Positions 1 to 55,577 of a DNA stretch of 64,000 nucleotides are shown piece after piece (position 1 is the first letter of the stretch; every line of letters begins with the position of its first letter). The notes under the pieces were generated by a model. It had not been told where the DNA came from. It did no database searches and saw nothing but the letters and a program-made list of their open reading frames with translations. The position numbers were made by a program, and so were the translations under genes. The DNA is from Algoriphagus pacificus (GTDB lineage Bacteria > Bacteroidota > Bacteroidia > Cytophagales > Cyclobacteriaceae): contig NZ_JAFKCU010000004.1 of the NCBI RefSeq assembly GCF_017254845.1, positions 244,124 to 308,123 of the forward strand, in the 5' to 3' direction.

Positions 1-447
1 TTTTGTAAAAAATGTCAAGAGGTAGGAGTGGATGGATTGATACTTCCGGATTTACCAATGCAGCAATACATTGATGACTACAAGGAATTGTTTGAGAAAT
101 ATGGTTTGGTCAATACATTTCTTATTTCACCTCAGACTTCCGAAAAGAGAATCCGTGAAATCGATGAGAATACCTCAGGCTTCATTTACATGGTTTCATC
201 CCATAGCATCACCGGTGCAAAAGCAGGGATTTCTGAAGAGCAGATTTCTTATTTCGATCGGGTGAAAGCACTCAACTTAAAAAATCCAAAGCTGATAGGT
301 TTTGGGATTTCAGACTCAGAAACATTTACCACTGCATCTAATTATAGTAATGGTGCCATCATTGGATCGGCATTTATCAAAGTTGTGAAGGATTCAAAAA
401 ACCTAAGTGAGGATATCCAGCGATACATTCAATCAGTGGTGAATTGA
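1..447 (+). CDS. trpA: Tryptophan synthase alpha subunit, 3' part only
   Basis: TrpA cleaves indole-3-glycerol phosphate to indole and glyceraldehyde 3-phosphate, the last stage of tryptophan synthesis, in complex with TrpB. The reading frame is open from the first base, so the N-terminal ~115 residues, including the first catalytic Glu, lie outside the window. Visible family landmarks are GVDGLILPDLP, the loop ending in SITGAK, the GFGIS phosphate-binding segment and the C-terminal GAIIGSAFIKV strand, all in the order seen in the Escherichia coli enzyme. It stops at TGA and is followed 89 bp later by aroF on the same strand, so an aromatic-amino-acid gene cluster probably continues upstream. 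The family assignment is firm; only the truncation by the window edge limits it. Confidence 0.95.
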   Translation, partial: FCKKCQEVGVDGLILPDLPMQQYIDDYKELFEKYGLVNTFLISPQTSEKRIREIDENTSGFIYMVSSHSITGAKAGISEEQISYFDRVKALNLKNPKLIGFGISDSETFTTASNYSNGAIIGSAFIKVVKDSKNLSEDIQRYIQSVVN

Positions 448-1594: not shown

Positions 1595-1648
1595 ATGAAT
1601 CCGACACCAAGAACCTTTGTACATCATTCTTACCACCATTCTCAATGA
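1595..1648 (+). CDS. His/Phe/Tyr-rich leader peptide (17 aa) of the phhA-his attenuator
   Basis: An ATG-started 17-codon frame encodes MNPTPRTFVHHSYHHSQ and ends in TGA at 1646-1648. It holds one Phe, one Tyr and four His codons packed into nine residues, a composition typical of regulatory leader peptides upstream of the genes that make or use those amino acids. The genes that follow are phenylalanine hydroxylase and five his functions. The reading frame overlaps strand 1 of the attenuator described next. No Shine-Dalgarno is seen, as is usual in Bacteroidota. A possible promoter (TTG at 1561-1563, 19 nt, TAAATTAG at 1583-1590) would put the transcript start almost at this ATG, but that promoter match is weak. 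Confidence 0.75.
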   Translation: MNPTPRTFVHHSYHHSQ

Positions 1649-1718
1649 AGGGGTAGGATTGCTATGGTTTTTTGGTAAAAATATAGAGGCCTATTCCTTA
1701 CTGGAGTAGGCCTTTTTT
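1628..1718 (+). promoter_or_regulatory. Transcription attenuator controlling phhA-hisHAF-hisIE
   Basis: Three mutually exclusive RNA helices can be drawn. Strand 1 (1628-1634, inside the leader codons for Ser-Tyr-His) pairs with strand 2 (1652-1658) over 7 bp with one G-U. Strand 2, extended to 1648-1657, pairs with strand 3 (1690-1699) over 10 bp with two G-U pairs, which is the antiterminator. Strand 3 (1687-1697) pairs with strand 4 (1703-1713) over 11 bp followed by a run of T, which is the terminator. A ribosome stalled on the His codons would cover strand 1 and free strand 2, giving read-through. This is the classical trp/his leader logic. The structures are seen directly; regulation is inferred. 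Confidence 0.75.
1687..1718 (+). terminator. Attenuator terminator hairpin before phhA
   Basis: An 11-bp stem (arms 1687-1697 and 1703-1713, one G-U pair) with a 5-nt loop is followed directly by TTTTTT. It lies 77 bp before the phhA start and therefore can act as a regulated stop for the downstream genes as well as an end for aroF. Confidence 0.85.
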
Positions 1719-2667: not shown

Positions 2668-3264
2668 ATGAAAATAGCAGTCATAAAATACAATTCCGGC
2701 AATGTCCAGTCGGTTCTTTATGCATTGGAACGTCTAGGCGTGCAAGCTGAATTGACAGACGATGCTGAAAAAATCAGGTCAGCAGATAAAGTTGTTTTTC
2801 CTGGTCAAGGTGAAGCCAGCACAGCAATGAAATACCTCAAGAAAAGGAACCTTGACACTTTGATTGGAGATTTGAAACAGCCATTTCTGGGAGTCTGCTT
2901 AGGACTTCAACTTTTGTGTGAGCACTCTGAAGAAAATGACACGAAGTGTTTGGGGATTTTTCCGGTGAAAGTGAAGAAGTTTGTGCCTGAAAATTCCCAG
3001 GAATTCAAAGTGCCTCATGTAGGTTGGAATGAATTGGAGGATTTAAAAAACAATCCATTGCTAGCCGATCTTCCAGCAAACCCATTTGTATATTATGTGC
3101 ATAGCTATTATGCGGAACTAAGCAATTTGACTCTGGCAAGTACGCATTATATCCATGATTTTTCCGGAATTCTTCATCGGGATAATTACTATGCCATTCA
3201 GGCTCACCCTGAGAAAAGTGGCTTAGTGGGAGAGAAGCTGTTAAGCAATTTCTTAAGGATTTAA
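2668..3264 (+). CDS. hisH: Imidazole glycerol phosphate synthase, glutaminase subunit
   Basis: HisH hydrolyses glutamine and channels ammonia to HisF to form imidazole glycerol phosphate and AICAR in histidine synthesis. The 198-residue protein shows the class I glutaminase triad: Cys77 in GVCLGLQ, His180 and Glu182 in AHPEKSG, with the oxyanion segment PGQGEA near residue 45. The frame is open upstream to 2593, but those extra residues are the translation of the hairpin repeat; the ATG at 2668 gives the family N terminus MKIAVIKYNSGN, so it is chosen. It is the first his gene after phhA and its partner hisF is two genes downstream. Confidence 0.96.
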   Translation: MKIAVIKYNSGNVQSVLYALERLGVQAELTDDAEKIRSADKVVFPGQGEASTAMKYLKKRNLDTLIGDLKQPFLGVCLGLQLLCEHSEENDTKCLGIFPVKVKKFVPENSQEFKVPHVGWNELEDLKNNPLLADLPANPFVYYVHSYYAELSNLTLASTHYIHDFSGILHRDNYYAIQAHPEKSGLVGEKLLSNFLRI

Positions 3265-3274
3265 AATCATAAAT

Positions 3275-3300
3275 AACGATTTACGAAATACGAGTTACGA
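3275..3300 (+). repeat. TACGANN heptad tandem repeat, copy 2
   Basis: Units TACGAAA, TACGAGT and TACGAGG follow a degenerate AACGATT. It matches copy 3 (4158-4183) at 23 of 26 positions in the same orientation and begins 10 nt after the hisH stop codon. A small GGTG/CACC hairpin follows at 3301-3314. Confidence 0.7.
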
Positions 3301-3397
3301 GGTGTTTCTGCACCTTCACAACAAGAATAAAACTCAAATCCCCATGTTTCCTTTGAAATATGCTGACAGCCCTTCAATAATTAATGTTAAATCATAA

Positions 3398-3439: not shown

Positions 3440-4156
3440 ATGCAAATAATCCCAGCAATCGACCTTATCGGAGGTAAATGTGTCCGACTAAGCCAAGGCG
3501 ATTACAGCAGCAAAAAAGAATACCATGACGATCCTTTGGAAATGGCCAAGCGTTTTGAAGGAGCTGGAATCCAAAGACTTCATTTGGTAGATCTTGATGG
3601 TGCCAAAGCCAAAAAGATTGTAAATGGAGATGTACTGGAAAGAATAACAAGCGGGACTAGTTTACAACTTGATTTTGGGGGAGGAATTCAGTCAGATGAG
3701 GAAATTGAGAAGGCTTTTGAATTCGGAGCAAAGCAGGTAACTGGTGGAAGTATTGCAGTGAAAAACCCAGAACTATTTGGTGGTTGGATCACCAGATTTG
3801 GCGCTGATAAAATCATTCTTGGTGCTGATGCCAAAAACAGAAAGATCGCAGTCGGAGGTTGGGAAGAAACTACCTCCGTGGATTTGATTCCATTTATCAA
3901 AGACTATGTCGAGAAAGGAATCAGCTATGTGATCTGTACGGATGTAGCAAAAGACGGATTGCTTCAAGGTCCATCTACGGATTTATACAAAGAGATTTTA
4001 GAAGAAATTCCTGGCGTAAAATTGATCGCAAGTGGAGGAGTATCCTCTGTGAAAGATTTGGAAGAACTGGAGAAAATAGGTGTTTACGGGACAATCGTTG
4101 GGAAGGCCTATTATGAAGGAAGAGTAACGTTGGAGGAATTGGCAGCTTTCGTTTAA
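3440..4156 (+). CDS. hisA: ProFAR isomerase (1-(5-phosphoribosyl)-5-[(5-phosphoribosylamino)methylideneamino]imidazole-4-carboxamide isomerase)
   Basis: HisA performs the Amadori rearrangement of ProFAR to PRFAR, the substrate of HisFH. The 238-residue TIM barrel begins MQIIPAIDLIGG with catalytic Asp8; the second catalytic acid is Asp130 in LGADAKN, and CTDVAKDG (from 166) carries the substrate-binding Thr. Two phosphate-binding motifs, FGGGIQ and SGGVSS, appear at equivalent positions of the two half-barrels. It is preceded by a 175-bp repeat-bearing spacer after hisH and followed by 201 bp before hisF; its TAA stop lies inside repeat copy 3. hisA is homologous to hisF, and the shorter length and catalytic loops separate them here. 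Confidence 0.96.
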   Translation: MQIIPAIDLIGGKCVRLSQGDYSSKKEYHDDPLEMAKRFEGAGIQRLHLVDLDGAKAKKIVNGDVLERITSGTSLQLDFGGGIQSDEEIEKAFEFGAKQVTGGSIAVKNPELFGGWITRFGADKIILGADAKNRKIAVGGWEETTSVDLIPFIKDYVEKGISYVICTDVAKDGLLQGPSTDLYKEILEEIPGVKLIASGGVSSVKDLEELEKIGVYGTIVGKAYYEGRVTLEELAAFV

Positions 4157-4183
4157 GTACGATTTACGAAATAAGAATTACGA
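4153..4183 (+). repeat. TACGANN heptad tandem repeat, copy 3 (overlaps hisA stop)
   Basis: Four successive units, TACGATT, TACGAAA, TAAGAAT and TACGAGA, start inside the last codon region of hisA; the TAA stop at 4154-4156 is part of the repeat. It is the best preserved copy in the window. Confidence 0.7.
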
Positions 4184-4292
4184 GATTGAACTGAACCTCA
4201 ATTATCAATATCAATTCTCACCATCAAAAAAGGCTAAATATGGGGAGGATGGTAAACACAAAAATAGACCTCGAACCCCGATAACTATAGGG

Positions 4293-4357: not shown

Positions 4358-5113
4358 ATGCTTACTAAACGAATAATCCCCTGCCTAGATATCAAAGAAG
4401 GCCGAACAGTCAAAGGAGTGAACTTTGTTGAGCTGCGTGATGCAGGTGATCCGGTGGAGTTGGCAAAAATTTACTCGGATGAAGGGGCTGACGAATTGGT
4501 GTTTTTGGATATCACTGCAACCGTAGATAAGCGTAAAACTTTAGCGGAATTAGTTACAAAAGTGGCCAAAGCCATCAATATTCCATTTACAGTGGGAGGC
4601 GGGATTTCTACTGTAGAGGATGTGAAAGTATTGCTTAATGCCGGAGCCGATAAGATTTCCATCAATTCTTCAGCGGTGAAAAATCCTCAAATTATCAATG
4701 AAATGGCTGCCGAGTTTGGTTCTCAATGCATTGTTGTAGCGATAGATACCCGAAATGTAGACGGAATTGACTTTGTCCATACTCATGGAGGCAGGCGGGC
4801 AACGCTTCTAAAAACACAAGAATGGGCTCAGGAAGTCTGCGAACGTGGTGCTGGAGAAATTCTTCTGACTTCCATGGATCATGATGGGACTAAAGCTGGA
4901 TTTTCCAATGAATTATTAGCTGAGATTTCTTCAGCACTTTCCATTCCAGTTATTGCTTCTGGGGGAGCTGGGACCATGGCACATTTCAAAGATGTGTTTA
5001 CCTTTGGAAAAGCAGATGCAGCTTTGGCAGCAAGTATTTTCCACTTTAAAGAGATTGGAATTCCTGAATTGAAGCGATACCTCGCCGATTCAGAAATCAG
5101 CATAAGAAACTAG
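4358..5113 (+). CDS. hisF: Imidazole glycerol phosphate synthase, cyclase subunit
   Basis: HisF uses ammonia from HisH to cyclise PRFAR into imidazole glycerol phosphate and AICAR. The 251-residue barrel has catalytic Asp11 in [10 protein letters not shown] and Asp130 in VVAIDTR, exactly the canonical positions, plus TVGGGIS and ASGGAGT phosphate-binding loops and the HDGT segment near 175. It is followed after only 2 nt by hisIE, so the two are translationally coupled. All three subunits or enzymes around the HisFH step are in this cluster. Confidence 0.97.
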
Positions 5114-5115
5114 TA

Positions 5116-5724
5116 ATGAGCGAAAGAATAATTGATTTCAAAAAAATGGACGGTTTAGTGCCTGCAATAGTACAAGATGCTTTGAGCGGGAAAGTACTGA
5201 TGCAAGGCTATATGAATGAGGAGGCTTTGGTAAAAACCAAGGAAACTAAACAAGTGACTTTTTTTAGCCGTAGCAAAAACCGGCTTTGGACAAAAGGAGA
5301 AACCTCTGGAAATTTCATGGAGCTAGTTTCAATTTCTGTTGACTGTGACGGAGATTCTATTTTGGTGAAAGCTAATCCAAAAGGTCCGGTTTGTCACACA
5401 GGTGCAGATACTTGTTTTGCTGAGGTGAATTCTTCTAAAATTGGTTTTATTGACCAGCTGAGAGCCATTATCAAGGATAGAAAAAACAATCCAACGGACA
5501 AATCCTATACAGCCTCACTTTTTGCCAAAGGCATCAATAAAGTTGCCCAGAAAGTTGGAGAAGAAGCGGTAGAGATCGTGATCGAGGCTAAAGACGACAA
5601 CAAAGAATTATTTATGGGGGAAGCGGCGGATTTACTTTACCACTATTTGGTTTTGTTGGAGGCCAAAGGATATGAACTAGATGAAGTAATGGATGTGCTG
5701 ATAGAAAGACATCAGAAAAAATAA
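5116..5724 (+). CDS. hisIE: Bifunctional phosphoribosyl-AMP cyclohydrolase / phosphoribosyl-ATP pyrophosphatase
   Basis: This fusion catalyses steps 2 and 3 of histidine synthesis. In its 202 residues the N-terminal cyclohydrolase part carries the metal-binding SVDCDGDS segment and the cysteines of GPVCHTG and DTCF; after a short linker near residue 110 comes the all-helical pyrophosphatase part with EVVEE-like GEEAVEIVIEAK and AADLLYHYLVLL. It is the last gene of the run and is closed by a strong terminator that starts in its stop codon. hisG, hisD, hisC and hisB are not in the window, so the pathway is split between loci or lies beyond the left edge. Confidence 0.96.
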   Translation: MSERIIDFKKMDGLVPAIVQDALSGKVLMQGYMNEEALVKTKETKQVTFFSRSKNRLWTKGETSGNFMELVSISVDCDGDSILVKANPKGPVCHTGADTCFAEVNSSKIGFIDQLRAIIKDRKNNPTDKSYTASLFAKGINKVAQKVGEEAVEIVIEAKDDNKELFMGEAADLLYHYLVLLEAKGYELDEVMDVLIERHQKK

Positions 5725-55495: not shown

Positions 55496-55577
55496 TGCGG
55501 ATAGAGGGACTCGAACCCCCATGCCTCGCGGCGCTAGATCCTAAGTCTAGTGCGTCTACCAATTTCGCCACATCCGC
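55496..55577 (-). tRNA. tRNA-Leu (anticodon UAG)
   Basis: On the minus strand the sequence folds as a class II tRNA with a 7-bp acceptor stem (GCGGATG/TATCCGC, last pair G-U), anticodon stem CTAGA/TCTAG around loop CTTAGGA, giving anticodon UAG for the CUN leucine codons, a long variable arm (about 55528-55515), and a T arm with GGTTCGAGTCC. The discriminator is A, as required for Leu. The 3' CCA is not encoded. It has its own consensus promoter upstream. Confidence 0.96.

Follow-up and report, generated by a model that had tools for sequence, protein, structure and literature searches.

Leader-peptide attenuation of his operons is known. In the his attenuator of Salmonella and E. coli the peptide contains seven His, the strand carrying the His codons competes for the antiterminator, the stop codon stands beside strand 2, and a U-run terminator makes termination the default. 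The thr and ilvGMEDA leaders each read several amino acids, the E. coli pheA leader contains Phe codons, and the leader ORF of Corynebacterium ilvB is leaderless, translated without a ribosome binding site. The thr, ilvGMEDA and E. coli pheA operons are named as attenuated in PMC1183508, and for a 2010 survey the known leader peptides were confined to Proteobacteria, Actinobacteria and the Firmicutes cases of the survey itself (PMC2965389). For Flavobacterium psychrophilum, leader-peptide attenuation is described in general terms in PMC9723704, which also states that Shine-Dalgarno sequences are not the basis of translation starts in the phylum; for Bacteroides, PMC7366714 mentions leader-like sORFs. 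In the open-licence PMC literature (titles and abstract starts) we found no phhA Tyr leader or His/Tyr leader among the matches listed, and no paper with both phhA and a leader peptide.

The Algoriphagus leader analyzed here, from a window of 64,000 nucleotides (the whole stretch of DNA that was analyzed), resembles the Salmonella/E. coli his attenuator in its His-codon placement, its stop codon beside strand 2, its U-run terminator and its predicted default termination; unlike that system it mixes His with Tyr, has phhA as its first gene, has two to four His and would control only part of the his pathway. It shares with the thr and ilvGMEDA leaders the use of several kinds of control codon, but their amino acids belong to one biosynthetic network whereas His and Tyr do not, and in phhA leaders the codon mix tracks gene order across species. 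As with E. coli pheA, an aromatic gene would be controlled by an aromatic amino acid, although the leader here would read mainly Tyr and the gene encodes a Phe hydroxylase. Translation without a ribosome binding site, predicted here, is a likeness to Corynebacterium ilvB, which differs in phylum and amino acids. The F. psychrophilum account concerns the same phylum and amino-acid biosynthesis operons, and its passages on attenuation name no phhA, Tyr or His/Tyr leader (PMC9723704). The features of the locus are as follows.

537-1556: aroF, DAHP synthase, upstream of the leader
1561-1590, + strand: predicted sigmaA-type promoter (TTG at 1561-1563, 19 nt, -7 box TAAATTAG at 1583-1590)
1595-1648, + strand: leader peptide ORF, 17 codons plus TGA, MNPTPRTFVHHSYHHSQ (17 codons and TGA in 39/39 leaders)
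1606-1615, + strand: strand 0, within codons 4-7, pairing with 1666-1676 of the untranslated leader in the predicted fold
1622-1639, + strand: control codons His10 His11 Ser12 Tyr13 His14 His15 (masking model, three assumed edges)
1628-1634, + strand: strand 1, pairing with 1652-1658
1648-1658, + strand: strand 2, starting at the final base of the stop codon and covered, in the model, by a ribosome at the stop
1662-1686, + strand: inner part of the antiterminator and U-rich loop, the loop also being the partner of strand 0
1685-1699, + strand: strand 3, common to antiterminator and terminator
1703-1718, + strand: strand 4 (1703-1715) and T run (1713-1718), intrinsic terminator
1795-2580, + strand: phhA, phenylalanine 4-monooxygenase, Phe to Tyr (NF008877, 275.1 bits over cut-off; PF00351)
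2668-3264, + strand: hisH (TIGR01855)
3440-4156, + strand: hisA (TIGR00007)
4358-5113, + strand: hisF (TIGR00735)
5116-5724, + strand: hisIE (NF002747)

Another gene upstream of the leader is presumably trpA. The best named match of PhhA is that of A. aestuarii (97%). A prephenate dehydrogenase family gene (PF02153) is also present in the genome, so PhhA would give it a second way of making Tyr, a point against the two-signal reading given below. Rfam's His_leader family (which we take to be RF00514) gave no match at the gathering threshold and was not one of the 9 matches that 1540-1780 gave up to E 5, and at the gathering score no family matched the window's leader or the 11 other loci tried. 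Sub-threshold matches such as Thr_leader (E 0.0041, 26.2 of 55 bits) and the trpB motif (E 0.032) were set aside as shared attenuator architecture.

We read this region as a ribosome-mediated transcription attenuator that responds to a shortage of His or of Tyr, with a probability of about 0.8. That it is an attenuator at all is close to certain, that it senses His is very probable, and that it senses Tyr, for which conservation and the stand-alone Tyr leaders described below are the grounds, is probable. From the sequence, its conservation, the predicted folds, the covariation of 3:4 and 2:3 and the association with gene order we infer a transcription start, stalling, read-through and an OR logic, which would operate together as follows. 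RNA polymerase would start at or beside the A of the leader AUG, and the ribosome would therefore load on leaderless RNA. With charged His-tRNA and Tyr-tRNA plentiful, it would reach the UGA and cover strand 2, whereupon strands 3 and 4 would make the terminator and phhA-hisHAF-hisIE would be off. With either tRNA short, it would wait at codon 10, 11, 13, 14 or 15, covering strand 1 and not strand 2, so that the 2:3 antiterminator would form first and transcription would read through; the logic would thus be an OR of His and Tyr shortage. Without translation, the 1:2 helix and the strand-0 helix would occupy strand 2 and the loop, giving termination by default.

PhhA was searched in three overlapping genome sets (58 genomes, 45 matched; 390 of the order, 266 matched; 395 of the class, 109 matched), and the upstream DNA of phhA was examined at 47 same-genus loci. 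The same leader is present at 39 of the 47; L011, where the contig stops 196 nt before phhA, was excluded from the 39, and no leader motif lies within 700 nt upstream of phhA at seven loci, all from genomes of 2.2-2.8 Mb that retain phhA-hisH. The 17-codon ORF of the first-pass annotation was confirmed, and the consensus of the 39 distinct leaders is [MV][NS]PTPRT[FY][VI]HHS[YHN][HYRC]xxx-TGA. His10-His11 and Ser12 never change, and a Tyr stands at codon 13 or 14 in all 39, including leaders in which His and Tyr are swapped (the pair reads YH, YY, HY, NY, YR or YC). His count per peptide is 2-4, 18 leaders have Phe at codon 8 and the other 21 Tyr, and 12 of the 39, the window's own among them, have a single Tyr codon, so the Tyr response may be weak. 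Because aroF is upstream of phhA at some same-genus loci and absent at others, the leader travels with phhA-his. In A. winogradskyi (L240, outside the 47) the distance from a leader, VNPTPRTYVHHSYYHLQ, to the downstream phhA is about 860 nt, with other DNA intervening. Two small-genome relatives, L026 and L025, have a promoter-like TAACTTAG upstream of phhA, followed by ATG CAT CAT TAG (MHH, then stop) in the former and GCG CAT CAC CAG in the latter; this is possibly a decayed leader.

The three helices claimed for the leader were recomputed as described, with small differences in length. The 1:2 helix (1628-1634/1652-1658) has 7 bp, one of them G-U, and its segment 1619-1663 folds at -14.1 kcal/mol (z -3.1). 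The 2:3 helix (1648-1657/1690-1699) has 10 bp, two of them G-U, and an inner helix at 1662-1666/1682-1686 (segment 1647-1699, -17.2 kcal/mol, z -2.7). The 3:4 helix spans 1685-1697/1703-1715 in the whole-leader fold and is partly overlapped by the T run (1713-1718), which continues behind it (segment 1686-1718, -20.5 kcal/mol, z -5.8; whole leader, z -5.4); it is the single terminator-like site within 1500-1900. In the predicted folds the antiterminator and the intrinsic terminator are mutually exclusive, strand 3 being common to both, and both the 2:3 core and the 3:4 terminator fold in the 39 genus leaders when these are cut into pieces.

Conservation of the peptide frame and of the alternative stems in relatives, proposed as a check by the first-pass annotation, was found across the 39 genus leaders, which lends comparative support to the attenuator, to His sensing and to the idea of two signals; compensatory change in the stems, its second expectation, is borne out for 3:4 and in part for 2:3. 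In the terminator 95.6% of cells are paired and three pairs are changed on both sides (alignment A1), including G-C to A-U at columns 100 and 101; none of 500 shuffles equals its cells paired, its doubly changed cells or its covariation score, and 13/500 have as many doubly changed pairs and as many pair types, with mispairing at two positions in 8 and 11 of the 39 leaders. In the antiterminator 85.6% of cells are paired (core helix 92.0%, inner helix 71.2%), a value reached by 0/500 shuffles; doubly changed cells are reached by 7/500, but doubly changed pairs by 45/500 and pair types by 500/500. One locus, L093, has C for T in strand 3 and G opposite it in both strands 2 and 4. For the 1:2 helix, 83.7% of cells are paired, 98/500 shuffles are as high, and no clear covariation is seen.

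To evaluate where a stalled ribosome would release the antiterminator, we assumed that its edge lies 10, 12 or 14 nt from the first base of the A site, hid the leader as far as that edge, folded the remaining leader up to strand 3 and counted the pairs of the 2:3 core (of 8). In the window's sequence, stalls at codons 10-15 give 7-8 of the 8 pairs with all three edges, so in this model the His/Tyr cluster is inside the sensing window regardless of edge. Stalls at codons 6-7 give no 2:3 pairs; codon 8 gives none with edges of 10 and 12 and all eight with 14; codon 9 works with 12 and 14, codon 16 fully only with 10; and the stop codon gives none with the 12-nt edge. Over the 39 leaders at the 12-nt edge, 2:3 forms for codons 12-15 in all 39, for codon 10 in 35, for codon 8 in 31 and for codons 17-18 in none. 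The geometry of an attenuator is thus reproduced in the model, in that a stall at the control codons covers strand 1 only and the stop covers strand 2. With edges of 10, 12 and 14, codon 8 works in 14, 14 and 16 of the 18 Phe8 leaders and in 12, 17 and 17 of the 21 Tyr8 leaders, making Phe8 a borderline case at the edge of the predicted sensing window. The earlier proposal of two signals read through His, Phe and Tyr codons therefore stands in its two-signal part, with the second signal best read as Tyr (at codon 13 or 14 in every leader); Phe as the main second signal was set aside as less likely, codon 8 being Tyr in more than half of the leaders and lying at that edge. This comparison suggests that two signals are integrated.

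The predicted promoter of the window has its +1 at 1595, the first base of the leader start codon. A TTG and a TAnnTT box ending exactly 4 nt before the start codon are present in 29 of the 39 genus leaders, including the window's (shuffled mean 0.06), and the leader mRNA is predicted to be leaderless in these 29; the remaining ten have boxes elsewhere, mostly 14-51 nt upstream. Among 48 other phhA leaders, TAnnTTTG ends 3-7 nt before the start in 21 (shuffled mean 0.22), and at hisG leaders the box stands at 4 nt in 0/22 and at 7-10 nt in 20/22. For comparison, F. psychrophilum has its sigmaA -7 box at -12 to -5, and leaderless transcripts make up 5.5% of its mRNAs examined (PMC9723704); about 3.7% of the 5' UTRs of Bacteroides thetaiotaomicron are under 10 nt (PMC7366714). 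Between the terminator and phhA, where by the first-pass annotation a start of phhA transcription would speak against attenuation, a strict sigmaA-like promoter occurs at 0 of the 39 leaders; the one sigma70-like match there in the window, at 1737-1764, is at chance rate.

We then compared phhA upstream regions across Bacteroidia with a leader rule that treats Tyr and His alike (four or more of them within 8 residues, and a terminator), since ranking short ORFs on whichever amino acid was enriched gave noisy results with leaders as short as those of the genus. Leaders by this rule occur at 85/183 regions on the forward strand and at 0/183 on the reverse strand, 85/183 not being a rate because part of the loci were chosen with the first results known: 120 regions were hand-picked among the matches listed, mostly one or a few per genus code, and L205-L217 were chosen as relatives of leader-bearing loci, some relatives of leader-less loci being skipped. 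By rule, leaders are present at 37/47 loci in the genus (L027 and L098 have the genus motif but fail the automatic rule, hence 37 in this contrast instead of 39) and, outside it, at 15/28 his-linked and 33/108 solo loci, where solo means no hisH, hisA or hisF match downstream, with at least 1.9 kb of DNA for all 33.

Where a leader is found, it is mostly Tyr-only if phhA stands without his genes and Tyr/His if his genes follow. Solo phhA genes in other families often have a Tyr-rich leader and then a terminator (MNNYYYYYYYRMMSFGMGVVCS at L113, MNFSAQNYYYYYYYRE... at L119, MINTNIYYYYYPLL... at L223), and his-linked leaders are mixed (AHAHYYAHYHIY at L036, AYYYHYYHA at L105, AHHHYYYYY at L106, THNHYYYYHLF at L130, TYHYAYYHARKH at L137). 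For the 48 outside-genus loci with a leader (15 linked, 33 solo), to which this contrast is confined, the leader core has at least two His in 13/15 his-linked and 2/33 solo loci (Fisher 5e-8, uncorrected for relatedness); a threshold of at least one His weakens the contrast (13/15 and 10/33). Both states occur in genus code g40, in which L125 and L130 are linked (2 and 3 core His) and L120 and L209 solo (1 and 0). Outside the 48, Litoribacter, Rhodonellum and Echinicola are his-linked with leaders of the types YHSYSHYH, SYFHYH and KYYSHYYHFF, and his-linked Anditalea, also outside the 48, has HHHH with its sole Tyr early and outside the cluster.

The two linked exceptions, L133 and L210, have Tyr-only leaders. 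In a search of the phhA-hisH gap made after these exceptions were known, the strict motif TTG-18..21-TAnnTTTG was found only at L133 and L210 among the 74 loci with hisH downstream, and hisH there may therefore not depend on the leader. The two solo loci with two His, L164 and L211, have no his gene in about 2 kb downstream, the downstream genes being not his by eye. A quick PhhA tree, in which long branches leave parts unsure, requires six changes of linkage and six of His content; it gives three independent pairs on well-supported branches (six on all), on average 2.5 in the expected direction and 0.1 in the other, too few for significance, and with only three independent contrasts 13/15 overstates the number of independent events. 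Outside the genus the rule gave no leader at 13 of the 28 his-linked loci; among named genera, Belliella aquatica and Aquiflexum lacus are examples without one. At one his-linked locus uncounted by the rule, L122, a short leader-like ORF without His, MNTVRRRWY, is followed by a terminator and a matching strand. The ORF MHTYHRWHYRA of Belliella-like loci was dropped, as it lies inside aroF (checked on L102 only).

The remaining his genes bear on the same question. The hisG gene of the window's own genome has a separate leader, MKNSTPNIAFSTTALHSHVQHHFHHSS, ending HHFHHSS, and a His-rich leader ORF is present at 22 of 30 hisG loci (by a rule that looks for His or Tyr, with the match at L072 dropped as spurious), so that on sequence evidence histidine synthesis in the genus is divided between two or more units whose leaders contain His codons. 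Between the hisG and phhA units, it is the phhA unit that has Tyr in the cluster, in 39/39. By eye, no U-run terminator is evident behind the leader of the own-genome hisG (L073, G000:C12:1137749-1138294), and its control may differ from that of the phhA unit.

The rival that survives best, though we consider it unlikely, is a plain histidine attenuator in which the Tyr and Phe codons are neutral or are kept as strand 1 bases. His is the majority codon, Anditalea has HHHH, the hisG leader just described likewise includes an aromatic residue, and Tyr13 (TAC) lies within strand 1, so its conservation may be partly at the RNA level; yet the Tyr is kept in every genus leader while moving between codons 13 and 14, in HY forms (L009, for example) the outer 1:2 helix is predicted to involve His11-Ser12, with only the last base of the Tyr codon paired, and the stand-alone phhA leaders elsewhere are mostly Tyr-only.

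A reading that we consider very improbable has the nascent chain or free peptide act, the invariant PTPRT arresting the ribosome or working in trans, beyond codon-specific tRNA shortage. A trans role has been reported for a Sinorhizobium leader peptide (PMC7298713), and at P3, T4 and T7 the genus leaders vary only synonymously, the amino acid being unchanged across 3-4 codons each. Part of this constraint is, however, explained by RNA: strand 0 (codons 4-8) pairs with the U-rich loop between strands 2 and 3 by at least five pairs in 38/39 full folds, and the bare duplex is matched by a median of 2/100 loop shuffles, although it does not stand out from the shuffles in L024 (49/100), L084 (58/100) and L089 (39/100). 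All 22 leaders with ACC at codon 7 have GG before the T run, against 1 of the 17 with another triplet there, and the wobble base matches in 22/26 leaders with G as the second partner base (shuffle p 0.002, uncorrected for relatedness). In this model the strand-0 helix explains codons 5-7, not codons 2-4, and the N-termini of phhA leaders in other genera are unrelated. That the ORF arose by chance before an ordinary aroF terminator, which would be natural behind a gene ending at 1556, we regard as negligible, since frame, length, stop codon and stems are conserved even without an aroF match upstream (L003, L004, L009), the reverse-strand control is empty and the pattern of change in the leader frame is not neutral.

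Returning to the two-signal attenuator, the comparison across species suggests that His codons were written into an older Tyr-only switch when his genes joined the operon. We lean toward the broader view that Tyr attenuation of phhA is old in Bacteroidia and that the leader is recast as the gene content of the operon changes. His codons, on the same somewhat favored view, would appear when hisHAF are on the transcript and be missing otherwise or where hisH has its own promoter. The result here, held with the same modest confidence, would be an OR gate on a leaderless mRNA that reads two amino acids without a metabolic relation and has a fifth pairing strand in its coding part. If so, PhhA here would be biosynthetic and induced by Tyr shortage, rather than Phe-degrading, and the phhA leaders would offer a natural experiment on how a regulatory codon set evolves after operon fusion. 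A Tyr-sensing phhA attenuator would join the known list, and the locus would allow leader-peptide attenuation on leaderless RNA to be tested in this phylum.

An N-terminal element common to several leaders of the own genome was considered and rejected, the pattern search giving 11 matches (one exact, this leader, and ten with two mismatches) against 7 for the reversed pattern. The sole Rfam match of the window at gathering score is a tRNA gene at 55496-55577 on the minus strand. REP-like short palindromes of the type GCTGCTTCTCCAGAAGCAGC are seen in the spacer between terminator and phhA at L003, L004, L005 and L009, and, by eye, similar-looking intergenic stretches (cgatttacgaaata..., catcggacatcgg...) lie in the window at about 480-536, 2605-2667, 3264-3310 and 4157-4200.
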